From positions 1-33,266 of the forward strand of contig BQIW01000050.1 in the NCBI GenBank assembly GCA_021604105.1: a DNA stretch of 33,266 nucleotides. The letters are read 5' to 3'. Origin of the DNA: Nitrospirales bacterium (GTDB lineage Bacteria > Nitrospirota > Nitrospiria > Nitrospirales > UBA8639). The position numbers and the translations under genes are program-made. Positions 1,201-21,863 of this stretch are shown here, in pieces (position 1 is the first letter of the stretch; each line of letters starts with the position of its first letter). The notes below the pieces were generated by a model. The model was given only the letters and a program-made list of their open reading frames with translations. It did no database searches and was not told where the DNA came from.

Positions 1201-2298
1201 ATGGTCGACTCGGTCGCTGAACATATTTTCGCCTTGGACGACGAAGATTGGGGGGTGCGCGAAGACGCAGCGGTAGCACTCGGACGTCTTGGCGATCCCC
1301 GTAGCGTTCAACCATTGATTCGGGCGCTTCGCGATTCGGATCGGGCCGTACGTGAGGCCGCAACTGCAGCCCTAAAATCGCTTGGGGAACCGGCCATTCT
1401 CTCATTAGGATTTTGCCTTCAGGATCTGAATCCTCAGGTTCAGGAATTGGCCGCTTGCATCCTGGCCGATATTGCCAACGAACAGGTATTAGATCCTTTG
1501 TTGTCCGCGGCATTAAGTCCTAACTGGATTGTGCGAATGTCGGCAGCCAAAGGCCTTGGTCGGATTCAGAATTCCCAGGCCATTGATACGTTAATTTTGC
1601 TTCTCCAAGATAAAGTGCCGGCTGTGCGGGAGGAAGCAGGACGGGCCATACAAGCCATAGGCAAAACCAGCATTCCAAAATTATTGGAAAAATTACAGGA
1701 TCAAAATTGGAAAATCCGGTTGCGGGCAGTGGAAGCGTTAGCCCTTTTGAAACCCCTTGAAGCAGTTGGACATCTGATGATTCTGGTTCTCGAAGATTCC
1801 GATACAGCCGTGCGCCAAGACGCCGTGCGAGCACTCGGACAGATTGGCGATCCTCGTGCCATTCCCTTGTTGCTATCATCCCTCGCCCTCGAAACGCCCT
1901 CACTCAAATTGCCCTCGATTGAAGCACTTGGGCAGCTCAGGTCTACCGAAGCCATTCCCAAATTAATTGCGCTGGTCAACTCGCTACCTCAAGAAGCCTA
2001 CGAAGATCGCATGGAAGGATGCACCGACCCTCAATATAAAGAAGAGCTTCCGCCCCTGGAAGCCGCTATCAGGGCCCTGGGGAAGATTCGGGACCCACAG
2101 GCTATTCCGGCCCTTATTCAAGCACTGCAGAGTACCCTCTTGCGGACAGAAGCTGCTGAAGCGTTAACTCAGTTTGGCCAGACAGCCGTGAATCCATTGT
2201 TAAATCTCTTAAAAACGACCAAAAATGACAATCTCCGTCGTCATGTGTTGGAATCCCTTTCTCACCTTGGCTGGAGGCCCGGGCAGATACGTATCTAG
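1201..2298 (+). CDS. HEAT-repeat protein 1 (365 aa)
   Basis: The whole protein is a run of about eleven 30-31-residue HEAT-like (PBS-lyase type) repeats. Typical units read VREDAAVALGRLGDPRSVQPL near the N terminus and VRQDAVRALGQIGDPRAIPLL in the middle. Such repeats stack into a solenoid used as a protein-binding scaffold; a few family members are phycobilin lyases, but no such pathway is visible here. A less regular insert lies around residues 255-285. There is no signal peptide or membrane segment, so it is probably cytoplasmic. It ends in an LGWxPG motif shared with the third HEAT gene. The ATG at 1201 has no strong ribosome binding site, and a stop at 1153 prevents a longer form. Confidence 0.85.
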   Translation: MVDSVAEHIFALDDEDWGVREDAAVALGRLGDPRSVQPLIRALRDSDRAVREAATAALKSLGEPAILSLGFCLQDLNPQVQELAACILADIANEQVLDPLLSAALSPNWIVRMSAAKGLGRIQNSQAIDTLILLLQDKVPAVREEAGRAIQAIGKTSIPKLLEKLQDQNWKIRLRAVEALALLKPLEAVGHLMILVLEDSDTAVRQDAVRALGQIGDPRAIPLLLSSLALETPSLKLPSIEALGQLRSTEAIPKLIALVNSLPQEAYEDRMEGCTDPQYKEELPPLEAAIRALGKIRDPQAIPALIQALQSTLLRTEAAEALTQFGQTAVNPLLNLLKTTKNDNLRRHVLESLSHLGWRPGQIRI

Positions 2299-2313
2299 CT
2301 GAAAGACCTGAGG

Positions 2314-3405
2314 ATGCCGAAAGAAACATTCGAAACCATCATTTCTGAACTGGATCATGAGGAAGATTGGCGCCGAATGCGGGCCACTTCCACCTGCATG
2401 AAAGGTGGGCCCAAGGCCGTTGAGGCCATAATTCACGCCATGGCGACGGGCTCTTCTCATTACAAGGTGGAAGCGGCAAAAATGTTAGCCCGCCTACGGG
2501 ACCCCCGAGCCGGCCAGGCCCTCGCTCATGTCCTGAAGGATGAGGATGAACAGGTGAAACAGGCAGCCGTAGATGCCTTGGAGCATATGGCTGGCATTTT
2601 GGATGAAGCCACCGCGTCTGCACTCTTAGAATATTTACGCGACGATACTCTCCAGGAAAAAGTTACGGCCCTACTCGGTGTGATTCCCACTTCTATCGGC
2701 CCTCTGTCGGAACGGCTCAAAGATCCCGATCCAGCCATCCGTCTCCGGGCCGCAGAGATTCTCGCCCATCTCCTTGACCCTCGATCCGCCAATGCGTTTG
2801 TTGATGCCATGTCCGACCCCGATCTTCGTGACCTGGCCACCGATACCTTGCGCAAATTGGGTGCGATTCGGGAACGTGTCGATCAAACGATGGACGACCT
2901 GCGGGCGGTGGACGAATCAGAGTTGAAAGAAGGCGTCCGGCAGGAAGCGGTTATTCAACTGCATCGTATCGGACGGCCAATCGTTGAAATTCTGATTGAA
3001 TACCTGGAGGACGATGACTGGGTGGTTCGGGAAGCCGCCGCTGACACCCTTGGCAAAATTGGCGATATTCGGGCAGTGGAACCGCTCATGATCCGGCTCC
3101 GGTCTGACAAAGACACGGGGGTGAAAGAACACGCGCTGAAATCCCTTGGGCTCATCGGCGATCCACGGCCGGTAGAATTATTCATTGAATCCATTCCCAT
3201 TCGCCCTCTTCGCATACTCGCTGTCGAAGCTCTGGAGAAAGTGAAAGATATCGAGGTCCTGAGACCCCATATGGAATTATTTGCCCGATTAAAAACCGAC
3301 CGGGACGGCTTGATTTCCTATAATTCCGGGGTCATCCTTGACAAACTCGAGGCTGCCACTGCACAAATGAACATGGCTGAAGAAACCTGGGCCGCAAAGG
3401 AATAA
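2314..3405 (+). CDS. HEAT-repeat protein 2 (363 aa)
   Basis: This second HEAT-repeat protein starts 15 bp after the stop of the first, which implies one transcript. Clear units include VEAAKMLARLRDPRAGQAL near residue 55 and VREAAADTLGKIGDIRAVEPL near 235. The middle part, around residues 195-215, is acidic and less repeat-like. The C-terminal 40 residues leave the repeat pattern and end in a charged helix with several methionines. No catalytic motif, signal peptide or membrane helix is visible. Its role is probably scaffolding of a partner; the partner cannot be read from the sequence. It is less similar to its neighbours than expected from a recent tandem duplication. Confidence 0.85.
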   Translation: MPKETFETIISELDHEEDWRRMRATSTCMKGGPKAVEAIIHAMATGSSHYKVEAAKMLARLRDPRAGQALAHVLKDEDEQVKQAAVDALEHMAGILDEATASALLEYLRDDTLQEKVTALLGVIPTSIGPLSERLKDPDPAIRLRAAEILAHLLDPRSANAFVDAMSDPDLRDLATDTLRKLGAIRERVDQTMDDLRAVDESELKEGVRQEAVIQLHRIGRPIVEILIEYLEDDDWVVREAAADTLGKIGDIRAVEPLMIRLRSDKDTGVKEHALKSLGLIGDPRPVELFIESIPIRPLRILAVEALEKVKDIEVLRPHMELFARLKTDRDGLISYNSGVILDKLEAATAQMNMAEETWAAKE

Positions 3406-3419
3406 AGGAGTGAAGACCC

Positions 3420-4190
3420 ATGACGGAAGGTAACCCCGTAGACCCCTTATTGTCGGCGCTTCGCGATGACAATGAAGCCCTTCGAAATCATGCCGCTTCC
3501 AGACTAGGAGAAGCCGGTTCAGAAGCCATTCCCAAGCTGATAAATATGTTCCTGGAAGACGATTGTGTAGTACGTGAGGCAGCCACGAGTGCGTTGGTTC
3601 AAATTGGTGAACCGGCCGTTGACCCCCTGATCGAGGCGTTAAAAGATGATGAGGAATGGTCTGTTCGGGAACAGGCAGCCACCGCTCTCGGGAAACTCCG
3701 TGCGATTAAATCGGTGGAACCCCTGATACAAGCCCTCCGTCATGACAAAGATGGAGGTGTCCGCACCGCCGCCATCTGGGCATTGGAACGCATTGGTCAT
3801 CCTGATGCAGTTCCCGCCCTGGTGGATGCCTTGATGGACGCAACTCTTCGTGAGGATGCTGCAAGAGTGTTAAAAAAATTGGGAGATTCCCGCGCGACTG
3901 ATGCTCTAGTGGAGGGCTTACAAGCCTCGAACTGGATTGTGCGCCGGCACGCGGCAGAGGCGTTAGGGAAAATTGGCGATCCTCGCAGCTTGGATCCTTT
4001 AATTCATGCTCTGGCGGATGAGGACTGGTTGGTCCGTCGGAATGCCGCAGAATCACTGGCTCGCTTCAAGGACAGTCGCGCCATCGACCCCTTGGTTCCC
4101 TTGCTCGAAGATGAAAATGAAATGGTTCGGGACACTGCCGAAGGTGCCCTGGCAAGCTTGGGATGGACACCCGGATCTTCCCGTTCATAG
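3420..4190 (+). CDS. HEAT-repeat protein 3 (256 aa)
   Basis: The protein consists of about eight very regular HEAT-like units, for example VREQAATALGKLRAIKSVEPL near residue 82 and VRRHAAEALGKIGDPRSLDPL near 175. It has almost no non-repeat sequence and ends in LGWTPG, matching the end of the first HEAT protein. It begins 14 bp after the second HEAT gene, with AAAGGAG upstream of the ATG. It is predicted to be a soluble cytoplasmic solenoid. Because it is the most regular of the four, it may bind the same partner as gene 1, but that is inference. Confidence 0.87.
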   Translation: MTEGNPVDPLLSALRDDNEALRNHAASRLGEAGSEAIPKLINMFLEDDCVVREAATSALVQIGEPAVDPLIEALKDDEEWSVREQAATALGKLRAIKSVEPLIQALRHDKDGGVRTAAIWALERIGHPDAVPALVDALMDATLREDAARVLKKLGDSRATDALVEGLQASNWIVRRHAAEALGKIGDPRSLDPLIHALADEDWLVRRNAAESLARFKDSRAIDPLVPLLEDENEMVRDTAEGALASLGWTPGSSRS

Positions 4191-4247
4191 AAGCAATCAA
4201 TGCTCTTTTCGCTTTCTTTTAACTATTACGAAGGACACTGACACATT

Positions 4248-4916
4248 ATGGCTAATGAAGCACCCGCAAAACTCATTTCGATCGGGCCCAAGAGTGGCAC
4301 GAAAAAGGATGGGTTTAATCTTGTGACTGAAAACGTCACGGCGATCCATCTTGAGACTAAACAAATTGAGGTCGAACTCTTGGCGTATGATGGAAAGACC
4401 GTTCTTATGGATGTCGGTGAAGAGGCTGCCGAAGACCTCCAAAAGATTAAAATCGGGGACGGGGCGACTCTTCGCGTCGTTGAAGAAGATGGCAAACGTA
4501 TCGTCAAGAGTTTTCGCATCCGCTCTAAAGACCCCAATATTCAACGGGCCGATGCGGCACTGCAAGACCTTACCGATACGCACTGGCTTAATCGCAAGCA
4601 TGCCATTGAAGTGCTTGGCGAACTCCGGGTGGAAGCAGCCGTCAAGCCGTTGGTGGACATGCTCGGTGATGAAGTCGGTGATGTCCGGCAGCGAGCCTAT
4701 GAGGCCTTGATCAAAATAGGAGCACCCTGTGTCGCTGAGGTGATACCCCTTCTGGTCTCCGAAGATGACGACCTTCGACAATCGGCAACTGAAATTCTTC
4801 GCAAGATTGGAAAACCCGCAGTTGAGCCTTTGGCCCAGGCATTAGGCGAGGCGGATGAAAGACTCCAAAAACGCATCATGAAGGTGTTGGACCGCATGGG
4901 GTATAAACGTAAATAG
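4248..4916 (+). CDS. HEAT-repeat protein 4 with N-terminal beta domain (222 aa)
   Basis: This is the last gene of the HEAT row, 57 bp after the third, with GAAGGA upstream. It differs from the others: residues 1-90 look like a beta-rich domain (alternating segments such as VELLAYDGKTVLMDV and ATLRVVEEDGKRIVKSF), followed by about four HEAT units from residue 105 to the C terminus. The N-terminal domain is not one I can name; its short strands resemble small barrel folds. No signal peptide is seen. A domain plus solenoid architecture suggests an adaptor, with the repeats as docking surface. Confidence 0.83.
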   Translation: MANEAPAKLISIGPKSGTKKDGFNLVTENVTAIHLETKQIEVELLAYDGKTVLMDVGEEAAEDLQKIKIGDGATLRVVEEDGKRIVKSFRIRSKDPNIQRADAALQDLTDTHWLNRKHAIEVLGELRVEAAVKPLVDMLGDEVGDVRQRAYEALIKIGAPCVAEVIPLLVSEDDDLRQSATEILRKIGKPAVEPLAQALGEADERLQKRIMKVLDRMGYKRK

Positions 4917-7306: not shown

Positions 7307-7897
7307 TTTAATAATATCTCCCTATCTGTACTACATCTTCCTTATCGCAAAGTGTATCGTTTCAGATAACAACCGTATCTCTTTAGATACGAATCGCATC
7401 TCCTCAAAAAGCTCTTTTCCAACAACCATGAAGACGAAAGGAAGCAACCAATACTTCAACTATGTCCTAGGAGTCACCCTCTACTCAAGTAAGAAGCAAG
7501 TCTTCGATTTTCGGACTTTGAAAGCATCTTGATCGACAAGGATTTTTTGCTCCCCAGTTGTCCTTAATATCTGGACTGAAAATTATATCCCTGCCATAGG
7601 GAGAAGCGGCATTCTTCTTGCTCGTTTTAAAGTATCAAGTTCACATTTGTCAGAAGGTTTCCGTCAAACTCGCATCTACTTGCTAGGAATGGGGATCAGA
7701 GAGAGACAGTCATTCCTGTCATTCCCGTCCTTTCTGTAATTGGATGGGAAAAATTCATGACGTAGACCAATAAAGGATCCTTCCAATATTTAAGCCATGT
7801 ACCTGAAAACCACTCTTTAAAAAACACATGATCCCTCCGCAGGTCCTCCTCATCTCTATATATTTAAAAAAAGAGCCTATAAACAAGGATTATTGTG
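7307..7897. other. Gene-free A+T-rich island segment
   Basis: I find no coding sequence here on either strand. A small dyad, CGTATC/GATACG, lies near 7373-7390, and short related words around it suggest a binding site or a degenerate repeat. The final 40 bases are strongly A+T rich and lead into the AAGGA ribosome binding site of the SGNH hydrolase gene, so the promoter is probably here, though no good -35/-10 pair stands out. A missing integrase gene could once have occupied this segment. Confidence 0.5.
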
Positions 7898-9487
7898 ATG
7901 CACCGAATGGTTTGCATTGGGGGAAGTGTCACGCAGGGTATGAAAAACTTTGCGGTGTTTGAGCCCCAATTGTCCTACCCTGCAATCATTGCTCATGAAA
8001 TGGGGCTTTCCGATGATGAATTTCGCTATCCTCATTTTCCGGGTAAGGGCAGCTTGCCTTTGAATATCGAGTACCTTCTTCGAAAAATGGATCAGACCTT
8101 CGGGGAAAACGTCAATCTCCTGGAGCTTCCCTTCGCGGCGATACTGTTGCGTGAATGGATGGACGACATAGAAGACTATTGGGAAAGAGGACCTGGAATC
8201 ACACCATTAAATTATGACGGGGATTTCCACAACCTCGCCGTGTGGGGTTTTGAGCTTCAGGATTCCTACCAAATCACAGCGAAATTATGCCAACAGGTCA
8301 TTTCACAAAATAAACCCACGGATAATTGGTTCACCCAAATTCCCGAACATGCGATGTTGTCGATCGCTCGGCGGGTCTTGAATCCCAGCCACTCGTCCGA
8401 CCCCAAAAAACTCAAGGCTAGCCAGGTCCAAAGAGCGGCAGAAATGGCGCGAAGGGACGGAATTGAAAATTTGATAATTAATTTGGGCGCAAACAATGTG
8501 CTGATGAGTGTAGTTGACCTCGTGTATGAGGAAAGCGACGAATGGACGATTAAACAGAAAAACCCAGAGTGTCGGACCGAGGCACATCATCCCAATAAAA
8601 AGCACGTTACGGTTTATACCCCTGCGCATTATGCACAATTGCTCGATCGGCTCATGACCAAAGTGGAACGGATGAATTCAGGGAAAGGCGTACAGAGGGT
8701 ATTTTGGGGCAATGTACCCCCGGTAACGGTTTTTCCCGTGTGCCACGGAGTCGGTGGCCGCATGGAATCGGCAGAGGGTCTCAGCTCTCCGTATGGCGAC
8801 AGAGACAACCAACATCCTGATTGGTATCGCCGCTACTTTAAATTTTATACTCGACCCTGGATACCGGGTACTCGCTTTCGTTCGGACGAAGATCCCCACT
8901 TGACAGGAAAAGAAATTATTCAGATTGACACTACCATCGCGAGATACAACAAATTACTGAGAAATAAGGTCGATCAACACAACAAGCAACGCCGCGACGC
9001 AGGCAGGAGTGAGGACTGGTTTATTGTTGACTTTCACAAGCTCCTTGATGAGCTGGCTTTCAGGCGGTATCAGGAAGATCCGACTGTTCCGCGGCCCGAT
9101 GAATGGCATCCACATAAAATCCCGCCAGAGTATGAAAAATTACAGCTCGATACCAGGTTTTTACGGGCCCACAACGGACAACGTATAGCTGGAGGATTTT
9201 TCAGTCTGGATGGCGTACACACGACCACAGTCGGAAGCGGGCTGGTGGCTCAGGAAGTCATCGACGAAATGCAACGAAGGGGGGTGGAATTCCACAAATG
9301 GACTAATGGAACGAAAACTCAACGCAATGCCCCGATAACGATTGACTATAGCCGGCTGATTCGACTGGATACATTAATCACCAAGCTTCCTTCCACAATG
9401 GACGACCTTTGGGACAAACTCGAAGACGGGGATGAACTGATAGATCTGTTTACACGAGCATTCAGGGGTATGGCCAAGCATTTCTGA
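7898..9487 (+). CDS. SGNH/GDSL-like hydrolase, cytosolic (529 aa)
   Basis: SGNH enzymes hydrolyse esters of lipids, aryl alcohols or acylated sugars. Block I is at the extreme N terminus, CIGGSVTQG, with S10 as nucleophile. Block II is NLAVWG (G117). Block III reads NLGANN (195-200), with Asn in place of the usual Asp of GxND. Block V is SLDGVHTTTVG, giving D438 and H441. At 529 residues it is about twice the size of a minimal SGNH enzyme, the extra mass lying between blocks III and V. There is no signal peptide, so it should act in the cytoplasm. The ATG at 7898 sits eight bases after AAGGA; a GTG three bases earlier is possible. It opens the island's gene row, 121 bp before the next start. 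Substrate unknown; lipid ester is a guess from its neighbours. Confidence 0.75.
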   Translation: MHRMVCIGGSVTQGMKNFAVFEPQLSYPAIIAHEMGLSDDEFRYPHFPGKGSLPLNIEYLLRKMDQTFGENVNLLELPFAAILLREWMDDIEDYWERGPGITPLNYDGDFHNLAVWGFELQDSYQITAKLCQQVISQNKPTDNWFTQIPEHAMLSIARRVLNPSHSSDPKKLKASQVQRAAEMARRDGIENLIINLGANNVLMSVVDLVYEESDEWTIKQKNPECRTEAHHPNKKHVTVYTPAHYAQLLDRLMTKVERMNSGKGVQRVFWGNVPPVTVFPVCHGVGGRMESAEGLSSPYGDRDNQHPDWYRRYFKFYTRPWIPGTRFRSDEDPHLTGKEIIQIDTTIARYNKLLRNKVDQHNKQRRDAGRSEDWFIVDFHKLLDELAFRRYQEDPTVPRPDEWHPHKIPPEYEKLQLDTRFLRAHNGQRIAGGFFSLDGVHTTTVGSGLVAQEVIDEMQRRGVEFHKWTNGTKTQRNAPITIDYSRLIRLDTLITKLPSTMDDLWDKLEDGDELIDLFTRAFRGMAKHF

Positions 9488-9608
9488 ATATTTCACCAGG
9501 TGCATTGATCTTCCTCATCGGAACAAAAAGGAAATATTGACTGCAGCCACAATAACCCGAACCAGTTTTTCGTCGGCTTTCATTTTCAGTCAAAAAGGAG
9601 ACTTAAAG

Positions 9609-10535
9609 ATGGAGGGCACTAATGGAAATCACGAAAGAGGAACAAGGAGACAATTGCCTATAAAAGGAGAAAGGAAAAATATTACCGAACTTACGGCTGT
9701 TGCGCGGATTAGGCCTGGAACGTATCCGGATGAGCGACTTCCACATGAATACAAAGACCTAATCTTTCAAAGTACCATGAACTTTAAGGATACGTTACCC
9801 GGTCTTCCAAAAAACTTTCTCACCGGTTTTGAGGATAGGCTGGGACAATTCGCCGACGCCCTGGCAAACGAAATATTTGAATCAGCCCATCCTTCGATAG
9901 ACCCTGAAAAATTGGTGGCTCATCATTTCGAAACGCTTCGAGTCCCTTCAAAATACGCCGATCCGTTCAAAGAATTTCTTATCGAATTCGTTGAAAAGTT
10001 CTTGAAACAGCGTCGGCCAATGACGTGGTTGGATCACCTCAAATGGTTTGGAAATTGGGCTCATGAGTATAGGCAAGACGCCATTAGAAAGATGTCAACC
10101 ATCCATTACGCACGATGGTTTATTGTGGACGAACATACTCTTCCTGGACTTGATGGTGCGCATATTGTGTTTACAAGTAATTACGACGGGGAGTTGGCAG
10201 CCTATCTGGAGGATTTCGCCAATGTGGATGAAGGTCCGCTCAATCTTGTATTTGGCCATTGCATTGGTTGGCCTGGTGCCAGACCCGCCAATGGCTTCAT
10301 AAAGTATGTAAAAGAGCATGAATATCCAGCCTTAATATTTTATGCCAATTATCCATTGGCCACGGTCGGCGAAGTGCGAAGGGCACTCGATTGGAAAAAC
10401 AAAACCCAAAATTTCATAGAAAAGGATTTGCCAAAATTGCTCAAGCGGAAGTCCGGAAAATGGGAGGCGGCCGCAAGAAAAACTTTAAGCAGGTACCTCA
10501 ACGAACTGGCAAAACCAACCTCCAACCGCGGATAA
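9609..10535 (+). CDS. Ferredoxin-fold protein, DyP companion (308 aa)
   Basis: I cannot give a precise function. Two segments resemble the two halves of a dimeric alpha/beta-barrel protein: ITELTAVARIRPG at residues 25-37, and IHYARWFIVDE at 165-175 followed by IVFTSNYDGELAAYLEDF (186-203) and GHCIGWPGA. From memory, such tandem modules occur in bacterial proteins encoded near or fused to heme peroxidases; that should be checked. DyP peroxidases share this fold class. There is no signal peptide or membrane segment. The frame is open from 9537, but the ATG at 9609 is preceded by AAAAAGGAG and is chosen. It ends 80 bp before the DyP-P450 start. Possible roles are heme handling, a non-catalytic partner, or an enzyme on the same substrate. 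Confidence 0.72.
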   Translation: MEGTNGNHERGTRRQLPIKGERKNITELTAVARIRPGTYPDERLPHEYKDLIFQSTMNFKDTLPGLPKNFLTGFEDRLGQFADALANEIFESAHPSIDPEKLVAHHFETLRVPSKYADPFKEFLIEFVEKFLKQRRPMTWLDHLKWFGNWAHEYRQDAIRKMSTIHYARWFIVDEHTLPGLDGAHIVFTSNYDGELAAYLEDFANVDEGPLNLVFGHCIGWPGARPANGFIKYVKEHEYPALIFYANYPLATVGEVRRALDWKNKTQNFIEKDLPKLLKRKSGKWEAAARKTLSRYLNELAKPTSNRG

Positions 10536-10615: not shown

Positions 10616-13600
10616 ATGATGAGTATGCCACCTATAAATGAACTAAAAAAAAATCTAATCGATATTCAAGGAAATGTTCTACGCGGTTATGGCCTTCGAT
10701 ATGCTACCTATCGTTTCTATAACGTAGGCGACCGGGAACAAGGAAGGAATTGGCTCAAGGAAATTCTCAAACCGAAAACCGGCCTTCTAAAAGATTTAAA
10801 AATTACTACTTCCGAATTCTGGCCAAAGGGTAAAAAACCCCCCTTTACTCTCAATATTGCCTACAGCCACCTTGGCCTGACAGCGTTGGACCTAGACACA
10901 GAGGTCCTAGCCACATTTCCCGAAGAATTTCGAGATGGCATGCGGAAACGGGCCGTCACAATATTGGGAGACGAACCCAAAGCGAATAAAAAGAAGGCAA
11001 GTACGAATGAAAATCATGAGACTATCCCAAAGCATTGGAAAGCTTCTTTTTTAGAAGAATCCGACACTGAGAAAATTCATTTTCTGGTAATAATTACCGC
11101 TGAGACGGAAGACTTACAAAAAAAAGGTGTGACTTGCCTTGAACAAACGATTTCCAAATTTGACAGGGTTAAATTCTTATTTGCTCTTGAGGGGAAACGA
11201 CGCCCACAACCCAATCATAATAAAGAGCACTTCGGCTTTACAGACGGGATCAGTCAACCTTACCTGGAGGGGACAGAATCCCTGTTCGAGGGCAAATCAG
11301 GCAACCCCGGTCAGGGGACCCCAGAGAAAAATGGCAAATGGCAGAACCTCAAGCCGGGGGAGTTTATTTTGGGTTATGAGGACGAGTTTGGGGAAGTCGC
11401 ACTGGTTCCCTCGCATTATGATTTACGAAAAAATGGAACGTACTTAGTTCTGCGAGTCCTTGAGGAAGATGTGGCGGCTTTTAGAAAATTCCTCAAGGCT
11501 ACAGCTAAAAAGCTTTGGCCTACGGCTTATCAGGAAGATCCTGATCATTTTGAAGGCCTAATTGCAGCTAAGATTATGGGAAGATGGCCAAGCGGCTGCC
11601 CCGTGATACATTCACCTTCAAAAGATAATACCCGCATTGCCACCGATCCCCAGAAAAACAACAACTTTCTTTACAAACGAGAAGATCCAGAAGGCAAAAA
11701 GTGTCCGCTTGGCGCGCACATCCGACGAGCCAATCCCAGGGACCAATTGCTCTTAACGTCGAAGGACATCTTCGATGAAAAAGAAAATTATGAATATCAC
11801 CTGAATCGGCACCGGATTATCCGTCGCGGTCTCCCCTACGGAAATGAATACAGAGGAAGACGCGGTGACGGGGGAAACCGAGGGATAATTTTCATGGCAT
11901 TCAATTCCAGCATTGGCCGGCAGTTTGAGTTTTTACAAAGGCAGTGGATCAACAATGGTGAATTTCTCGGTCTGGACAAAACAGACCGGGATCCCATTAT
12001 GGGAATGAGGGATGGGAAGAACGCAAAATTCACAGTACCTGGAGCTGAAAACCCCTTTGCACACGATCTCCAACGCTTTGTCACCGAACGAGGAGGAGAG
12101 TATTTTTTTTATCCCGGTCTCACCGCTTTGCGGAAAATTTCAGAAGGGGCGTTCGGGGCCAATCCAACCTTCCAATCTCCATCAAAGGCCCTGCCGTCTA
12201 TGGCCCATCAAGCCCTCCAATCTCAACCCAAGGCCTTACCGTCTATGGCCCATCCCTCCTTCTTATCCGAATATCAGGCATTGAAATCCATGTCGCATCC
12301 TTTCAAGGGAGCGGCAGCCAGGCAACAATTGGTGAGTAAATGGTTAATTGGAAATGCCAAGGAAATGTTTGACGAGTTACGTGAGAAGAAACCGATTTTT
12401 ATTGTGCCGCCCGTCCCTCCTCCCAAAAAACTTCCTGATTTAGGGAAGCCTTGGATAGTCATTGCGACCAAATATGACGATGTATTGGAGATTCTCCGGG
12501 ATCAAAATGAAAATTTTTCAGTGGCCCTCTATGCAAAAAAAATGGTTGACCCCCGTGGGCCTTTCGTTCTTGGCTTGGAACACCATACGGATACATACAA
12601 AAAGGAATTAAATATTATCAAAAGGGCGGTCTATCCTCAGAATGGTGATGTGGGAACAACAATCTACGATACGATTGACCGCCTAGCCAGTGAGATCACC
12701 AGCAAAATTCAGAGAAAGGGGAAAATTGATGTCATTGAGGAGTTGGTATGGCCCGTCACCCTACGCTTGAACGGGGAATTTTTTGGAGTGCCCGGGCCTG
12801 GCCCAGGTTCTGACCTGAAGATCTTCAAAAGATGGTGTCGCGACATTTATACGGATTTATTCCTCAACCTTCGTGAAAACAAGGAGTGGGAGAGACGGGC
12901 CGATATCGCAGTGACGGAGATGAATAATTATCTGGACGACCTTATTCAGGTCAGGCGAAAGGAGCTTAAAAATTCGCAGAAGGAGCCTGACACCGTTCTC
13001 GACCGTTTAATCCAAATCCAGGAAGGGGCAGGTGACAAATTCGAGGATGAAGATCCGTGGGTGGGTGTTCGCCGCAATATCTTTGGCATGGTGATTGCCG
13101 TAGTAGAGACAACTTTAAAGGCTGTGCCACGTACCATTGACCAGCTGCTCAAGCATGAAGGCATATTTCCAAAAGCCAGGGAGGCAGCGCTGGCATATTC
13201 CCATACTCAGGACCCGGGCCAATTTAAAAAATATGTGTTTGAGGCCATGAGATTTAATCCACAAAACCATGTGCTTTTTCGATTGGCTCTCAAACCCTTT
13301 ACACTGGCTGCCGGGACGGATCGCGAAACAGATTGCCCAGCACCTGCCTTGGTGTTTGCCGGGAATCTGGGAGCCATGTTCGACACCGAGAAGATCCAGG
13401 ACCCAGAGAAATTTCGTTTGGACAGGCCGGATGACAACTACTTATTTTTTGGGTACGAACATCATAAATGTCTGGGAGAGCAGATCAGCCGAATACAAAT
13501 CCCTCTTCTGATCAAACATGTGGTGACCTTGAGTAATCTCCGTAGACCTGAGGCTGGTGATCAATTCGACCATTTGGACCTGCGACCGGAGCACTTCTTG

Positions 13601-13621
13601 CTGGAATTCGATGCTTCCTAA
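10616..13621 (+). CDS. DyP-type peroxidase / cytochrome P450 fusion (1001 aa)
   Basis: Two heme enzymes lie in one chain. Residues 10-510 are a DyP-type peroxidase: DIQGNVLRGYG (16-26), HFGFTDGISQP with D210 of the GxxDG motif, CPLGAHIRRANPRD with proximal H368, IIRRGLPYG with distal arginines R403/R404, QFEFLQRQW, and RGGEYFFYPGLTALR (492-506). Residues 518-562 are three 15-residue repeats acting as a linker. Residues 605-1001 are a P450: I-helix AVVETT with E831/T832, the ExxR motif E876-R879, and heme loop FFGYEHHKCLG with ligand C952. All key residues are kept, so both halves could be active. No reductase or ferredoxin gene is near; the P450 may use peroxide or a peroxidase product. The open frame begins at 10391, but GGGAG before the ATG pair at 10616/10619 fits, and the earlier part overlaps the previous gene. 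There is no signal peptide. Confidence 0.93.
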   Translation: MMSMPPINELKKNLIDIQGNVLRGYGLRYATYRFYNVGDREQGRNWLKEILKPKTGLLKDLKITTSEFWPKGKKPPFTLNIAYSHLGLTALDLDTEVLATFPEEFRDGMRKRAVTILGDEPKANKKKASTNENHETIPKHWKASFLEESDTEKIHFLVIITAETEDLQKKGVTCLEQTISKFDRVKFLFALEGKRRPQPNHNKEHFGFTDGISQPYLEGTESLFEGKSGNPGQGTPEKNGKWQNLKPGEFILGYEDEFGEVALVPSHYDLRKNGTYLVLRVLEEDVAAFRKFLKATAKKLWPTAYQEDPDHFEGLIAAKIMGRWPSGCPVIHSPSKDNTRIATDPQKNNNFLYKREDPEGKKCPLGAHIRRANPRDQLLLTSKDIFDEKENYEYHLNRHRIIRRGLPYGNEYRGRRGDGGNRGIIFMAFNSSIGRQFEFLQRQWINNGEFLGLDKTDRDPIMGMRDGKNAKFTVPGAENPFAHDLQRFVTERGGEYFFYPGLTALRKISEGAFGANPTFQSPSKALPSMAHQALQSQPKALPSMAHPSFLSEYQALKSMSHPFKGAAARQQLVSKWLIGNAKEMFDELREKKPIFIVPPVPPPKKLPDLGKPWIVIATKYDDVLEILRDQNENFSVALYAKKMVDPRGPFVLGLEHHTDTYKKELNIIKRAVYPQNGDVGTTIYDTIDRLASEITSKIQRKGKIDVIEELVWPVTLRLNGEFFGVPGPGPGSDLKIFKRWCRDIYTDLFLNLRENKEWERRADIAVTEMNNYLDDLIQVRRKELKNSQKEPDTVLDRLIQIQEGAGDKFEDEDPWVGVRRNIFGMVIAVVETTLKAVPRTIDQLLKHEGIFPKAREAALAYSHTQDPGQFKKYVFEAMRFNPQNHVLFRLALKPFTLAAGTDRETDCPAPALVFAGNLGAMFDTEKIQDPEKFRLDRPDDNYLFFGYEHHKCLGEQISRIQIPLLIKHVVTLSNLRRPEAGDQFDHLDLRPEHFLLEFDAS
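12167..12301 (+). repeat. Three 45-bp tandem repeats in the fusion linker
   Basis: Three consecutive 15-codon units encode TFQSPSKALPSMAHQ, ALQSQPKALPSMAHP and SFLSEYQALKSMSHP (residues 518-562). The first two are nearly identical at the core KALPSMAH; the third has diverged. They lie exactly between the last DyP motif and the first P450 segment, so they look like a flexible spacer that grew by in-frame duplication. Confidence 0.85.
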
Positions 13622-13836
13622 AGTGCTTTTGATATAGGACTGAAACCAGACAGGTCTGAAAACAATCGAAATTTTGCTGTTTAAAAAATAAGGAGGTGGA
13701 TCAAGAATAGCGCTCAATGCGGAAAAAGCGGCAATGGTATTTCTCAATTAGGCTAATTTACCTGATTCGTCGAGGATGTCTCATAACCTCACTACTTCGG
13801 CAGGATTGTGAGGCATTTAGCCGCGGGGGAATAATA

Positions 13837-15186
13837 ATGAAGGCTTTAAAAATTTCAGCCATCTCTCTCCTTCTATTTTTTCCATCGGTCACCTTGGTAT
13901 ACGGGGAAGCATTCCGTAACCTGCATCAGGGCACGGCTGCAGCAGGACAAGGTGATGCATTTGCCGCTCAGGCCGACGATCCCTCCGCGCTTTATTATAA
14001 TCCGGCAGGAATGACCCAGTTAGAAAGCGTACAACTTTATACCGGCCTACTCTTAGTTGGTGGGAATTATCATTATACAAGTCCGGCAGGACAGAAATTC
14101 GATGGCACGCTCGATGGCACCATAGCCTCCCCTCCTCCCTCCTACTTTTATCTCACTGCCAACCTCAACCAGCTCAATATTGACGTTCTGAAAGACTTCA
14201 CGTTGGGCATTGGCCTCAACAGTCCTTTTGGTTTGCTTATTCGCTGGCCTAACGATATCCCCTTTTCCGAAATTGACGTGTTTGGCACTCTTCCGTTGGT
14301 CGATATTAAGCCAACTGTGGCATATAAGGTGAACGACTATTTTTCGATCGGAGGCGGATTGGATATTTACACGTTTGCCAACTTTTTGGGGGAAGGACAA
14401 CTTGAGGTTCAGGCTTCTGGCCGAGGAACCAACTTTCCCTCTGGTGCTCTCGTAGAGGTAAATGGAACCGATACCGCTGTTGGTTTTAATCTGGGTGGAC
14501 TTCTAACCCTCTGGCGAACTGGAGGAAAACCCCGATTAAACTTCGCCTTTGTCTATCGAAGCCCGACGACTCTTCGATTAAAAGGGGAGCTTCAACTTAA
14601 TGGAACCAAATTGAATGATACGGTCATAGACCTCAAGCTTCCACAAATTTTCAATTGGGGAGTAGCCCTCTGGCCTCTCCGAAACGAAACCAGCGAATGG
14701 AAAGTCGAGGTTGATCTGGACTATGTGGACTGGGGTTCATTCAACAATACGGACGTTCACAATGCAGATACCGGCGAGGTCCAATTGCCTCAACCGAGAA
14801 ATTGGAAAAGTGTTTTTGTGATCAAAGTCGGAACGGAATATAAATGGCTTCACCTTTCCTCCATGCCTAACTGGGAAATGGCGTTACGCGCCGGATACAT
14901 ACGATCAGAAACCCCTGTCCCCAATTCAACATTCGAGCCACTGGTCCCGGATGCCGATTTTAACGGGTTTTCGATCGGCATTGGAATGATTTGCAAAGGC
15001 CATGCACGCTTTCTTGGCATTGTCCCCTGCCAAAATTCTATTACGAAGAGCATCGGTTTGGATTTGACTTATGTGAACCAGCTGTATGAGTCCCGCACAA
15101 TTAAAAACAATCCTCAGGCCCTAGTGAATGGCAAATATGACACCACCCTGCATGCCGGAGGAATTGGCGTGCGAATGACATTCTGA
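13837..15186 (+). CDS. FadL/TodX-family outer-membrane channel (449 aa)
   Basis: FadL proteins are 14-stranded barrels with a periplasmic hatch that pass long-chain fatty acids or aromatic hydrocarbons across the outer membrane. A signal peptide spans residues 1-23 (MKALKISAISLLLFFPSVTL, then VYG), with cleavage likely before EAF. The family signature follows: GTAAAGQGDAFAAQADDPSA and then LYYNPAGMTQLE. The remainder alternates polar and aromatic residues as in beta strands and ends in the aromatic IGVRMTF, a proper barrel C terminus. Length is typical. The frame is open from 13717, but the ATG at 13837 after GGGGGA gives the signal peptide at the true N terminus. It lies 215 bp after the DyP-P450 gene; a strong AAGGAGG at 13690 in that gap has no start at suitable spacing. 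The cargo is probably hydrophobic. Confidence 0.9.
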   Translation: MKALKISAISLLLFFPSVTLVYGEAFRNLHQGTAAAGQGDAFAAQADDPSALYYNPAGMTQLESVQLYTGLLLVGGNYHYTSPAGQKFDGTLDGTIASPPPSYFYLTANLNQLNIDVLKDFTLGIGLNSPFGLLIRWPNDIPFSEIDVFGTLPLVDIKPTVAYKVNDYFSIGGGLDIYTFANFLGEGQLEVQASGRGTNFPSGALVEVNGTDTAVGFNLGGLLTLWRTGGKPRLNFAFVYRSPTTLRLKGELQLNGTKLNDTVIDLKLPQIFNWGVALWPLRNETSEWKVEVDLDYVDWGSFNNTDVHNADTGEVQLPQPRNWKSVFVIKVGTEYKWLHLSSMPNWEMALRAGYIRSETPVPNSTFEPLVPDADFNGFSIGIGMICKGHARFLGIVPCQNSITKSIGLDLTYVNQLYESRTIKNNPQALVNGKYDTTLHAGGIGVRMTF

Positions 15187-15296: not shown

Positions 15297-18200
15297 ATGA
15301 CTGACTTTCTCCCCATAGAACATACCATTCTTGAAAGACCTTTCATGCTTTTTCGCCCATTCGGCAAAGAAGCAAGCGGAGAACCTATTAACGATATGAC
15401 AGGGGTGTCCATCCGCGAGAACGTCAAATACCTTGAAGAGTTTGTGAGTCGTGAACGGGGGGCAGAAGCCGGCACGATCGTAGCAAAGGAATTGGTAAGG
15501 CGCTTAAACGAACGGATACCCGAACCGGCTTATCATGTCACCACTGAATTTTTAGCGAGGGGGTCCACAGGTTATTCAAACGAGTTTGTCGCCTATCTCG
15601 TAGAGCTCTGCATTGATTTATCCAAGGATCCTGACTTTCAAAAACACGTAGGTGAAAGGCTGGTCCCAGACTGGCTTATTAGAGTTATGCGATTTTTTTC
15701 CATCAAGCAAATTTATAACAGTGCAGACAAATGGGTGGGATTTTATAACAAGAGTTCCTATCTTCTGGAGAAGATGCAGATTTCAACCCATTCAGTCACC
15801 ATTCGTCTAAGACTCACGCCCCGAACCGAGGAGCAGTTTGGGGAATACCGTAAGTCCTGTGGCAGAATTTGGTGTAATGCCATTAAATACGGTATCGCCA
15901 GTGTTCCCAGGCGGGTGCATGATCTGCCGCCGGCGAGAATAGACGATCATGGTTGTATCGCAAAAGGCCAGGATTTTTGTGAGTGGAGATTTACGTGGAA
16001 CGAACCTCGCCGAACGTGGAATCCTGCCAAACCCCTGGCCCGGTGGATTCTCAATAAGGAAATTGAGGGGCAGAAACAATCTTTTCAACAGCAATATGAT
16101 GAGTTAAATACTGCCAATGTTGAACTACAAGACAGCTCCGCCAAATTGGGAGAAAGTGCCGCAGCATTGGCGCATCGCGTTGAACAGTTAACGGCCCTTC
16201 ATGAAGCCGGAATTGCTTTCACCTCAGCCCGAGACTATAAGACCTGGGTTCAAAGAGCATTACAAGCGATCATTGCCATTCTTCATTATGATCGGGCGAT
16301 TATTAGTCGTTACGACCGGATACGTCAAGTCACGTATGATGCCCAACTGATTAATGTGTCCGAAGAAATCGCGACGTTCGCCAACTCGCTTGAGGTACCT
16401 GTCACTGACCCCCAAAGCATAGAAGGACAAGTTTTGCTTCAGCAAATGCCACTGCTTCTAGACGATATTCATCACGAATGGCATAGACTACATCCCCTTA
16501 ATCAACAACTCGTGAACCTTACTAACGCCAAATCGTTTATCTCCGTGCCATTAGTGGGGAAGGAAGGGGTGTTAGGATCCCTCACTGTGGACCGAAAAGA
16601 GGACAATTCTCTGAAACAGGATGACTTAAACCTAATGATCACGTTGGCAAATCAGCTCGCATTGGCTCTCGAAAATGTCGACGCTTACGGAGAGATTGAG
16701 GCATTAAATGTCGGATTAGAGGCAAAAGTTCAAACTCGTACAGCAGAATTGGAAGCTGCAAACGATCGTTTGAAGGAACTTGATCGCCTCAAGACCGAAT
16801 TCTTTAACAATTTGAATCATGAGCTTCGCACTCCCCTTACACTGAGTATGGGAGCGTTTAAAAGCCTATTTAAGGATGTATCCATTTCAACGGAGGCACG
16901 GCAGTGGATACTTACAGGTTACGAAAACTCTAAGCTTCTTTTGGATCTTATCAATGATTTACTAAAATTGGCCAAATTAGACAGCGGCCATTTTAAACTC
17001 CAAAAACGGTGTTTTGATCTGAATGCGTTCATTCAAGGTATAGCCTCCAACTTCAAGGCGTCGGCAAAAAAACGTCTTCACCTGAGAGAAATGACCGGAG
17101 TTATTCCGATTGAAGCGGATCCTCGGCAATTGAAAGCCGTATTCTATAATTTGTTTTCGAATGGGTTGAAATTTAGTGATCATCAGGAAGGGCAGGTCTG
17201 GGCAGCCTTAACTGTAAAGAATCGACACGTTCTCGTCGCAGTTCAGGATAATGGCATTGGAATTCCTGACGATCAACTGGAACGAATTTTCGAACGCTTC
17301 ACTCAGGTAGAGGGAAGTCCCAACCGACGCTTTGAGGGTACGGGAATCGGACTGGCTTTGGTAAAGGAAATTGTCACCCTTCATGGAGGGCAAATCACCG
17401 TACAAAGTAAACCTAATCAGGGATCGACTTTCACCATCATGCTTCCCTGTGGATCTGCCCGTGAGGATAACCTCGTGAACATTGAAGACAATGAAGGGCT
17501 GGCATTTCTTGACCCCAGTGGTTTCAAAAAACCAGAGGTTCGTTTAGAAGTGCCACTCTCTGAAACTGTAGAGGGAAAACCTTTAGTCCTTGTTGCTGAA
17601 GACAATGCCGACATGCGGAATTATTTGGTGCGGATTCTTTCCTGCCAGTACCTTGTCGAGCCCGCAGAAAACGGACTTCAGGCTTTTGAAAAGGCCAAGA
17701 TGGTTAAACCTGAGTTGATTTTGACTGATGTCATGATGCCGAAAATGAGCGGGTATGATTTGCTGCAATCTATTCGGAGCGAAAAAACTCTATGCAATAT
17801 CCCTGTCATCTTCCTTACCGCTCGCGCTGACGAGGAGGAACGACTCAAGGGACTCGAAAAGGGTGCGGACGATTATGTAATCAAACCCTTCAACGAGAAC
17901 GAGGTGTTGGCTCGAGTTCACAACCTGATACGGTCAAGAAGGCAGGAACGGGAAATCAGGGAGCTTCGCGAACAAAAACTGACTCGTTTTCTTCCTCGTC
18001 ATCTTGCTGAACTTGTCCTTGAGGGAAATGCTGACCAATTCCTCAAAGGTCATCGAAGAGAAATCACAGTGATGTTTATAGATTTGCGTGGATTTACCGC
18101 TTATGCTGAAATTGCCGACCCTGAAGATTTGCAAAATGAACTTCGAAAATATCAGTTTGAAATGGGGAGGTTGATTATCGAATTTCACGGCACATTGGAG

Positions 18201-18632
18201 AGATTCACCGGTGATTCCATCATGGTCTTTTTTAATGATCCCCTTCCTTCACCCAATCACACCGATCTGGCCTTAAACCTAGCACTTGCAATGCGGGAAC
18301 GAATGAAGCAATTGTGCAGAGATTGGGAAAATCGAGAAATTCCGCTTGGGGCCGGGATAGGAATTGCCACTGGCTTGGCCACCATGGGTCTCATGGGCTT
18401 AGAGGAACGTGTGGACTATGCTGCCATTGGTCCCGTAGTTAATTTGGCCGCACGCTTGTGTGATATAGCTAAAAATAGCCAAATTCTCATTACCCAATGC
18501 ATCTTTCACAAAATGGAGAAACGCATTATTGCCGAACCACTGGGAAACTTTCCCCTAAAGGGAATTCACCCCGCTGTTCCTGTTTATAACTTAATTGGAC
18601 TACGACCTAACTGGGAGAATCTGTCCCACTGA
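15297..18632 (+). CDS. Hybrid sensor kinase-receiver-adenylyl cyclase (1111 aa)
   Basis: Domains in order: residues 1-235, a V4R-like ligand-sensing region ending in the typical HGCIAKGQDFCEWRF with C220 and C228 (also C188, C193); a coiled coil about 258-298; GAF about 300-462; a second coiled coil 465-500; HisKA with phospho-acceptor H508 in NHELRTP; HATPase with the N box NLFSNGLKFS (618-627), DNGIGIP (651-657) and GTGIGLALVK (681-690); a receiver with D811 and K863; and a class III cyclase (920-1065) with metal-binding D929 and D973, D1040 for adenine choice, and N1049/R1053. No membrane segment is seen, so it senses a cytoplasmic ligand. It probably links that ligand to phosphorelay and cAMP. 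Position K969 of typical cyclases is arginine here, which leaves activity slightly uncertain. No clear ribosome binding site precedes the ATG at 15297. It is the last island gene and may regulate the others. Confidence 0.88.
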   Translation: MTDFLPIEHTILERPFMLFRPFGKEASGEPINDMTGVSIRENVKYLEEFVSRERGAEAGTIVAKELVRRLNERIPEPAYHVTTEFLARGSTGYSNEFVAYLVELCIDLSKDPDFQKHVGERLVPDWLIRVMRFFSIKQIYNSADKWVGFYNKSSYLLEKMQISTHSVTIRLRLTPRTEEQFGEYRKSCGRIWCNAIKYGIASVPRRVHDLPPARIDDHGCIAKGQDFCEWRFTWNEPRRTWNPAKPLARWILNKEIEGQKQSFQQQYDELNTANVELQDSSAKLGESAAALAHRVEQLTALHEAGIAFTSARDYKTWVQRALQAIIAILHYDRAIISRYDRIRQVTYDAQLINVSEEIATFANSLEVPVTDPQSIEGQVLLQQMPLLLDDIHHEWHRLHPLNQQLVNLTNAKSFISVPLVGKEGVLGSLTVDRKEDNSLKQDDLNLMITLANQLALALENVDAYGEIEALNVGLEAKVQTRTAELEAANDRLKELDRLKTEFFNNLNHELRTPLTLSMGAFKSLFKDVSISTEARQWILTGYENSKLLLDLINDLLKLAKLDSGHFKLQKRCFDLNAFIQGIASNFKASAKKRLHLREMTGVIPIEADPRQLKAVFYNLFSNGLKFSDHQEGQVWAALTVKNRHVLVAVQDNGIGIPDDQLERIFERFTQVEGSPNRRFEGTGIGLALVKEIVTLHGGQITVQSKPNQGSTFTIMLPCGSAREDNLVNIEDNEGLAFLDPSGFKKPEVRLEVPLSETVEGKPLVLVAEDNADMRNYLVRILSCQYLVEPAENGLQAFEKAKMVKPELILTDVMMPKMSGYDLLQSIRSEKTLCNIPVIFLTARADEEERLKGLEKGADDYVIKPFNENEVLARVHNLIRSRRQEREIRELREQKLTRFLPRHLAELVLEGNADQFLKGHRREITVMFIDLRGFTAYAEIADPEDLQNELRKYQFEMGRLIIEFHGTLERFTGDSIMVFFNDPLPSPNHTDLALNLALAMRERMKQLCRDWENREIPLGAGIGIATGLATMGLMGLEERVDYAAIGPVVNLAARLCDIAKNSQILITQCIFHKMEKRIIAEPLGNFPLKGIHPAVPVYNLIGLRPNWENLSH

Positions 18633-20658: not shown

Positions 20659-20877
20659 CCAGAGGCCTCAGGACAGGACCAGACGAGCCTTTTCGAACAC
20701 TCCATGATTTTTCCAGTGGGTCTCAGTCCTCACATGTTAATGAAAAGCCCAAATATTTGAATAATCCAATTGCCCACTTCCGACAGACCCTCGATCCGAT
20801 TCTTCCCGCACCTTAGCCGTTCAGAATATTCTGAAACAACCGAATGGCTCCCGAAATATTGCCCACAGGAGAGAACT

Positions 20878-20964
20878 ATGCTACACCTTGCCTCGTTATG
20901 GTCACCCAATATTTTTCACGGGCGAAACCACACTTCCTCACCCTACTCCTGGGTATTATGGTGA
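20878..20964 (+). other. Short upstream ORF with strong ribosome binding site
   Basis: AGGAG (20867-20871) lies six bases before the ATG at 20878, the best initiation signal in this region. That frame encodes only 28 residues, starting MLHLASLW and ending at a TGA inside the signal-peptide coding part of the ChaN-like gene, in another frame. It could be a leader peptide controlling the lipoprotein gene by translational coupling, or the sign of an indel in the sequence. Confidence 0.3.
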
Positions 20965-21863
20965 TGAGCGCCAGCTCCGGATGTGCGACGTCACAAGCCA
21001 ACCCGACATTTGAAGTCAACCACATCTACGATGTTTCCCGGCAGCAAGTCACCACATTCAACGATCTGCTCCCACACCTCTTAGCCGCCGATGTGATCTA
21101 TATCGGCGAGGAACATTATACCCCCTCACACCTTGAGGCAGCCCAGAAAATCCTGAATGCTCTCCTTGCCCATAACCAACACCCAGCGTTGGCCATGGAA
21201 ATGTTTAGTTGGGATGGACAATCCGGGCTAGACCGGTACATCCAGGAATCCGACTTTACGACCGAACAAATGATAAAGGACTCACAATGGAACACCAATT
21301 GGGGTGGAGAGTTTGCCGATTATCAACCATTGGTGACCTTTGCCAAATCCCATCAACTCAAAATCTTTGGCCTTAACCCGCCACGCCCCCTTGTTCGCTT
21401 GGTCGCCAAAAAGGGATTAGCCGAAGCCTTGCAAGACCCGGAAATGGGAAAATGGCCCATTCAAGAAATCGTGACCGATAATCCCGCATATGAGCAATTA
21501 ATCTTTGAACAAATTGAAGCGTGCCATCCCGGCTTGCCAAAGGACGTGTATCGCCGAATCTTCGAAGCATCCATCTTCAGGGATGAGGGCATGGCTCAGA
21601 TTATCGCCAATTACCTCAACACGCGATCCCGGACCGACGGACCTCTGGTGAGCTACACGGGCGGCGGTCATATTCAGTATAAAATCCCTGTCCCTAAGCG
21701 GGTTGAACGAAAGCACCCCGGCGTCAAATCCGTTACCATATATCTCGAAGCATGGGATCCCTCCAAAAAGGAGGAGGTTCGTTCGGAGATGAAGGCCGGT
21801 ATTGCCGATTTTCTCTGGCTTACCCCTTTGGGCCCCCAGGGTCTTCAGCCCCGTTGCGGCTAA
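20898..21863 (+). CDS. ChaN-like heme-binding lipoprotein (321 aa)
   Basis: The protein belongs to the ChaN family (Pfam Cofac_haem_bdg type), surface lipoproteins that bind heme as a dimer and are linked to iron uptake. Residues 1-29 form a lipoprotein signal: basic start, hydrophobic LTLLLGIMVM, lipobox SSGC with C29. Family features follow: DVIYIGEEHYTPSHLEAAQ, then ALAMEMFSWDGQSGLDRYI. The C-terminal SYTGGGHIQYKIPVPKRV is also typical. The start is unsettled. The frame is open from an ATG at 20844, which would put 18 residues before the signal, and neither ATG has a good ribosome binding site; 20898 gives the better signal peptide. A double-CDGSH gene follows after 46 bp, probably in the same operon, which fits a role in iron or heme handling. 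Confidence 0.82.
   Translation: MVTQYFSRAKPHFLTLLLGIMVMSASSGCATSQANPTFEVNHIYDVSRQQVTTFNDLLPHLLAADVIYIGEEHYTPSHLEAAQKILNALLAHNQHPALAMEMFSWDGQSGLDRYIQESDFTTEQMIKDSQWNTNWGGEFADYQPLVTFAKSHQLKIFGLNPPRPLVRLVAKKGLAEALQDPEMGKWPIQEIVTDNPAYEQLIFEQIEACHPGLPKDVYRRIFEASIFRDEGMAQIIANYLNTRSRTDGPLVSYTGGGHIQYKIPVPKRVERKHPGVKSVTIYLEAWDPSKKEEVRSEMKAGIADFLWLTPLGPQGLQPRCG

Follow-up and report, generated by a model that had tools for sequence, protein, structure and literature searches.

A DyP-type peroxidase fused to a cytochrome P450 in a conserved operon of Nitrospirales: a candidate analogue of the fungal oxylipin synthases

In this study, we report that a bacterium of the order Nitrospirales encodes a DyP-type peroxidase and a cytochrome P450 in a single chain, that this fusion is genuine, and that it lies in an operon conserved in five other genomes of the order. 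The window, as we call the whole stretch of DNA analysed, spans 33,266 nucleotides (contig BQIW01000050.1, assembly GCA_021604105.1) and belongs to a 4.9-Mb draft genome of 217 contigs. Positions 10616-13621 of its forward strand translate into one stop-free reading frame of 1001 residues, with a GGAG Shine-Dalgarno-like site 5′ of an ATGATG start and a coding-type codon-position GC pattern in both halves. The frame, its domains and its neighbours are as follows:

7895..9487, + strand: possible SGNH/GDSL-type esterase, a tentative member of the operon (GGSVTQ, NLGANN and DGVH, recognised by eye)
9537..10535, + strand (the start may be the ATG at 9609): gene X, of an undescribed family of DyP partners, with homologues beside related DyPs
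10616..13621, + strand: DyP-P450 fusion, a single open frame of 1001 residues with single-frame orthologues in five other Nitrospirales genomes
10616..12145, + strand: class-V-type DyP domain, residues 1-510 (DyP_N, Dyp_perox_C and DyPs of the PDB)
12146..12355, + strand: inter-domain linker with the imperfect repeats KALPSMAH / KALPSMAH / QALKSMSH, which are absent from the other orthologues
12356..13618, + strand: P450 domain, about residues 581-1001, of an oxygenase-partnered P450 family (Pfam, PDB, alignment)
13717..15186, + strand: outer-membrane porin of the FadL/TodX family, for lipids or hydrocarbons (PF03349, E 8e-40)
15297..18632, + strand: sensor histidine kinase with GAF, HisKA, HATPase, receiver and cyclase domains (Pfam)

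The presence of a DyP and a P450 in one chain, first read from the sequence in the initial annotation, was confirmed by the translation and by Pfam, NCBIfam and PDB matches. Indeed, Pfam recognises DyP_N (E 1e-13, 52.2 against a cut-off of 27.5), Dyp_perox_C just at threshold (20.2 against a curated cut-off of 20) and p450 (E 7e-9, 35.3 against a curated cut-off of 22.8 bits), and the NCBIfam model Dyp_perox_fam passes its curated cut-off (102.7 against 100.5). In the PDB, residues 12-510 match DyPs, with 8re3 as the best match (E 4e-55), and residues from about 600 to 1000 match bacterial P450s. Judged by these profiles and by its catalytic residues, the N-terminal half is a DyP-type peroxidase of class V; judged by its Pfam match, its cysteine ligand and its ExxR motif, the C-terminal half is a cytochrome P450. 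The AlphaFold2 model, built on an alignment of 38 sequences of which only two covered the P450, has a mean pLDDT of 56, mostly below 50 in the P450 half, and contains no confident domain interface.

All the heme-binding and catalytic residues first singled out (D210, H368, R403/R404, ExxR and C952) stand at the positions then given:

11243..11245, + strand: codon of D210, the distal Asp of GxxDG (here GFTDG), kept in 21 of 21 P450-linked DyPs
11717..11719, + strand: codon of H368, the proximal heme ligand, in GAHIRR, kept in 21 of 21
11822..11827, + strand: codons of R403/R404, the distal Arg; R403 kept in 21 of 21, R404 in 18 of 21
13106..13114, + strand: I-helix E831-T832-T833, with the acid-alcohol pair present (alignment of relatives)
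13241..13252, + strand: ExxR motif, E876-R879 (alignment of relatives)
13469..13471, + strand: codon of C952, the heme thiolate ligand, in the loop FGYEHHKCLG (alignment of relatives)

The position of R404 is occupied by Val in three of the 21 aligned P450-linked DyPs. Since all of them have the residues that correspond to D210, H368 and R403, the DyP site of this group should, on alignment, react with peroxide. The same Asp, His and Arg, together with the sequence family, link the N-terminal half to the class V (former C/D) enzymes 8re3, AnaPX, MscDyP and PsaPOX; while these stand alone, the window DyP is fused to a P450.

The P450 half is more unusual. It lacks the C-helix HxxxR of ordinary bacterial P450s, with YxxE in its place, and its cysteine loop departs from the ordinary FGxGxHxCxG by a Glu that replaces the usual Gly before the Cys; both features are typical of bacterial P450s, but the superfamily does not strictly require them. 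P450s usually activate O2 with an I-helix pair made of an acidic residue and a following Thr, and in CYP152-type peroxygenases Arg-Pro replaces this pair. The Arg-Pro signature is not found in the window P450, which has E831-T832 in the alignment. The acidic residue and Thr are kept in 10 of 20 DyP-linked P450s and lost in the other 10, so that the group does not share it as a fixed feature. These data do not establish the initial suggestion that peroxide might stand in for a reductase: the window P450 keeps the pair, although it is missing from half of the P450s linked to a DyP. Redox genes within 6 kb did not discriminate either: ferredoxin genes were absent from the loci of the P450 family (0/37) and from the controls (0/40) alike, and FAD reductase genes lay at 0/37 and 2/40 of them.

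Single-frame, full-length orthologues of the fusion are present in six Nitrospirales genomes including that of the window, from two families, with 38-64% pairwise identity from end to end. An initial scan of genome contigs with the window protein as the single query gave no match. An orthologue from another genus (46% identity to the window fusion) is likewise a single frame, and a two-sequence profile run against 396 genomes of the phylum yielded four more fusions from another family, with open frames of 972, 1026, 946 and 966 codons. These five relatives keep the frame whole, whereas a split frame in relatives had been named at the outset as what would refute the fusion. The closest named fused relative is the Nitrospirales MAG OFTM51. 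In the P450 tree, the P450 halves of the six fusions form one clade with a support of 1.00; the linker between the domains varies in length and sequence. The DyP half of one orthologue (L089 8701-11760) carries an insertion of ~70-85 residues near its C-terminus.

The surroundings of the fusion are also conserved. At 6/6 fused Nitrospirales loci, gene X, the fusion, the FadL-family gene and the sensor kinase gene follow one another in this order on one strand, with the FadL-family gene directly 3′ of the fusion. Compared over the roughly 250 aa of their N-terminal sensor regions, the six kinases share 45-77% identity, which indicates that they are orthologues and not just any kinases. The window kinase carries a receiver and a guanylate-cyclase-type domain, neither of which occurs in the two relatives that were scanned, which are shorter (739 and 771 aa). 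As for the putative esterase gene upstream of gene X, database searches, Pfam and NCBIfam among them, gave no support for this identity; in four relatives, the gene before X has weak, sub-threshold matches to esterases or lipases. Elsewhere in the window, four consecutive genes (1201-4916) encode HEAT-repeat proteins, and a ChaN-like heme-binding protein is encoded about 7 kb downstream of the fusion (20844-21863).

Gene X is a general partner of related DyPs and not peculiar to the fusion: its homologues lie upstream of and beside 51 of 54 related DyPs (loci L029-L083) in many phyla, including many stand-alone bacterial class V DyPs. No Pfam, NCBIfam or convincing PDB match was found for the family, a Foldseek search with its predicted structure (pLDDT 65) returned no match at E < 0.1, and profile comparison with DyP gave nothing. 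Two members match ABM weakly (best E 0.0024), which we regard as a lead only. A long form of 506-620 aa exists at four loci (L092, L093, L094 and L097), where an extra stretch separates the conserved parts; in one member this stretch has a weak, sub-threshold match to Wzy_C. Catalase-family proteins, which resemble catalase only weakly, adjoin some X-DyP pairs. On plasmid pSCLO_2 of Sphingobium cloacae (L104 273-7320), such a protein, X and DyP stand beside an oleate hydratase and fatty-acid genes, with no P450. A Methylorubrum P450 beside X, DyP and catalase was set aside as an ordinary P450 from outside the family, with ferredoxin and FAD reductase genes adjoining.

The domain pair extends beyond Nitrospirales. 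An alphaproteobacterial genome (G613) encodes a 1007-aa DyP-P450 with X upstream, and at three proteobacterial loci, in Novosphingobium, Pararhizobium and genome G1046, a single chain of 1423-1443 aa has the reversed order P450-X-DyP. Current annotation names just the DyP domain for the Novosphingobium chain and just a P450 for the Pararhizobium one. The two domain orders imply at least two fusion events, and the G613 fusion may represent a third. An apparent 1024-aa P450 fusion in Nannocystis was rejected as an overlong reading frame running across a HemD-like gene.

By sequence, the window P450 belongs to a rare, distinct family. Its C-helix lacks the H/R pair and mostly has Y, N or H and then E or D instead, and in the trees the family stands apart from ordinary P450s, its long-branch member L121 excepted, which was not placed. 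The plasmid relatives of the family were found by P450 sequence alone, and the partners of these sister P450s are of several kinds. The next gene in Rhizobium etli and Sinorhizobium medicae encodes an animal-type heme peroxidase according to Pfam, and the best PDB matches of the R. etli protein are prostaglandin H synthases (COX-2, E about 1e-57):

L106 5929-8831: P450 followed by a COX-2-like, animal-type heme peroxidase, on a rhizobial plasmid of R. etli IE4771
L105 5857-8774: P450 followed by a COX-2-like, animal-type heme peroxidase, on a rhizobial plasmid of S. medicae
L111 5860-8777: P450 followed, in the COX place, by a frame of equal length, on a rhizobial plasmid of R. gallicum (this frame itself contributed to the COX profile)

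These plasmids thus possibly carry a bacterial COX-P450 pair. In Methylobacterium, Bradyrhizobium and Nitrosovibrio-class genomes (L107, L108, L109, L110, L115 and L125-L129), the genes beside sister P450s are RoxA/oleate-dioxygenase-like di-heme genes, identified by Pfam for two of the Methylobacterium/Bradyrhizobium proteins, and the Bradyrhizobium gene lies near an oleate hydratase gene. The RoxA-like group includes the oleate 10S-dioxygenase and the diol synthase of P. aeruginosa (PMC4496055). In Skermanella, X, DyP and P450 are consecutive. One Nitrospirota locus (L094 7649-14907, genome G240) combines P450, X, DyP and a divergent RoxA-like gene. Beside the P450s of this family, the DyP unit thus stands where sister P450s have COX-2-like and RoxA-like, that is lipid-oxygenase-like, proteins.

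We measured this association with a profile of 19 family P450s on alphaproteobacterial, myxobacterial-phylum and Nitrosovibrio-class samples. A partner is adjacent or fused in 14 of 15 further members (X and DyP in eight, RoxA-like in six), Nannocystis having neither; the 15 include Nannocystis and Nitrosovibrio, both already found by P450 match. Among 40 lower-scoring ordinary P450s from the first two sample searches, none has a partner beside it. The difference is large (Fisher p=3e-12), with independence overstated by the shared ancestry of the loci; the controls were selected on score with no matching for lineage, and the threshold that divides the family from ordinary P450s (169 versus 155 bits) was drawn once the scores were known. 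We therefore trust the direction of the association and not its exact size. Over the whole family, 34 of 37 loci have a partner, a biased count as some loci were found through their DyP, and the three loci with none nearby are in G202, G217 and Nannocystis.

On balance, we think it probable, by a modest degree, that the fusion is a bifunctional two-heme enzyme resembling an oxylipin synthase. Gene X and the DyP half would form a first unit acting on an unsaturated lipid, in all likelihood a fatty acid, and the oxidised product is probably a hydroperoxide or a similar activated lipid. Passed from one heme to the other, this product would be rearranged by the P450 half, using its O-O bond, to a diol, an epoxy alcohol, an allene oxide or the like. 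The FadL protein would import the substrate or export the product, and the kinase, conserved along with the fusion, may sense that product as a signal, by analogy with the oxylipin system of P. aeruginosa. A fatty acid is suggested by the COX-2-like and oleate-dioxygenase-like partners, by FadL and by the fatty-acid genes beside some relatives. Against this proposal, we know of no DyP that makes fatty-acid hydroperoxides, a plain peroxidase consumes peroxide, the window P450 keeps the E-T pair usual for O2 activation, and three of the 37 family loci lack a partner nearby. In its favour, the P450s that accompany fungal dioxygenases are described as self-sufficient, and in some of them a Thr occupies the distal position near the iron (PMC13049297).

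That DyPs consume peroxide is also the basis of a protective or peroxygenase pairing, in which the P450 hydroxylates its substrate with a reductase or H2O2 and the DyP protects it from bleaching by clearing excess H2O2 or lipid hydroperoxides. The fully intact DyP site, the E-T pair and the catalase-family neighbours of some X-DyP pairs all agree with such a role. We nonetheless consider it unlikely, as the known relatives of the COX-like and RoxA-like proteins, which hold the DyP's position next to sister P450s, are oxygenases rather than scavengers, and as FadL and gene X would be left unexplained. The lipid could instead be an isoprenoid, since RoxA-like proteins, which pair with sister P450s, also include rubber oxygenases, and the FadL/TodX family also takes up hydrocarbons; the DyP half would then oxidatively cleave or oxygenate such a lipid (a carotenoid, a polyprenoid or one of hopanoid type), leaving the P450 to finish the product. 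In line with this pathway and with the main proposal alike, class V DyPs are reported to oxidise beta-carotene, in some cases with no H2O2 added, and alkene cleavage is reported for one of them (PMC8197335, PMC7181223). The COX-2-like partner and the oleate hydratase neighbours favour fatty acids, and we hold the isoprenoid pathway to be a serious, if rather improbable, alternative. It is very improbable that the two halves are independent activities, merely expressed together in one chain without sharing an intermediate: the variable linker and the model lacking a confident interface would fit, but both fusion orders, and the persistent adjacency of the unfused genes in several phyla, speak against it. 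Finally, an assembly or gene-calling artefact joining two genes, conceivable in a draft of 217 contigs, is ruled out by the same single frame and gene order in five other genomes, the frame being moreover stop-free and of coding character in both halves.

Fusions of a dioxygenase to a P450 are well known as a kind. The lipid-oxidising reading places the window protein beside the fungal Ppo/linoleate diol synthases (DOX-P450, CYP6001-6005), in which an N-terminal heme oxidase and a C-terminal P450 also share one chain. The analogy, put forward in the initial annotation, has gained from the COX-2-like and RoxA/oleate-dioxygenase-like neighbours of sister P450s, the former in Rhizobium and Sinorhizobium, and from FadL in the operon, while the chemistry attached to it is still conjectural. 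The window protein is bacterial, is accompanied by gene X, and has a DyP as its first domain instead of an animal-type heme peroxidase. With this DyP and no PF03098 match to the fusion in Pfam, it is not a member of the Ppo/LDS family, and the comparison suggests a functional analogue. In the oomycete CYP5619 proteins, the P450 precedes the heme oxidase, as it does in the P450-X-DyP chains of Novosphingobium and Pararhizobium; their oxidase half is a heme peroxidase/dioxygenase like that of CYP6001 and not a DyP (PMC5919972). The oleate diol synthase system of P. aeruginosa (PA2077/PA2078, RoxA-like) is likewise a bacterial lipid-oxygenase operon, with a regulator gene, OdsR, and a FadL-named exporter, ExFadLO, which according to a title cited in PMC5155153 exports oxygenated fatty acids. 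It differs in that both steps are carried out by periplasmic di-heme cytochrome c proteins, with neither P450 nor DyP, and in that OdsR is LysR-type whereas the Nitrospirales operon has a sensor kinase; no CXXCH c-type heme motif occurs in the 1001-residue fusion, against two in the RoxA/OdsA type. Our search of an open-access library found no description of such a fusion, which does not prove absence, and neither "P450" nor "fusion" occurs in the text of a 2021 review of DyPs.

More tentatively, with a likelihood we put below that of the enzyme model itself, X and DyP might be an unrecognised lipid dioxygenase and DyP-P450 a further, independent two-heme oxylipin synthase; the P450 family would then serve as the common second step after three unrelated oxygenases, COX-like, RoxA-like and DyP, and in Nitrospirales a lipid signal would be read by the adjacent kinase. 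The partner-swapping P450 family itself extends wider than the fusion. If the model is true, the joining of a lipid-oxidising heme enzyme with a P450 would have happened repeatedly, out of superfamilies that are not related. The model would also give a concrete physiological setting to class V DyPs, of whose natural roles little is known, would put a name to gene X as an undescribed family of partners, and would predict oxylipin-type signalling in Nitrospirales.
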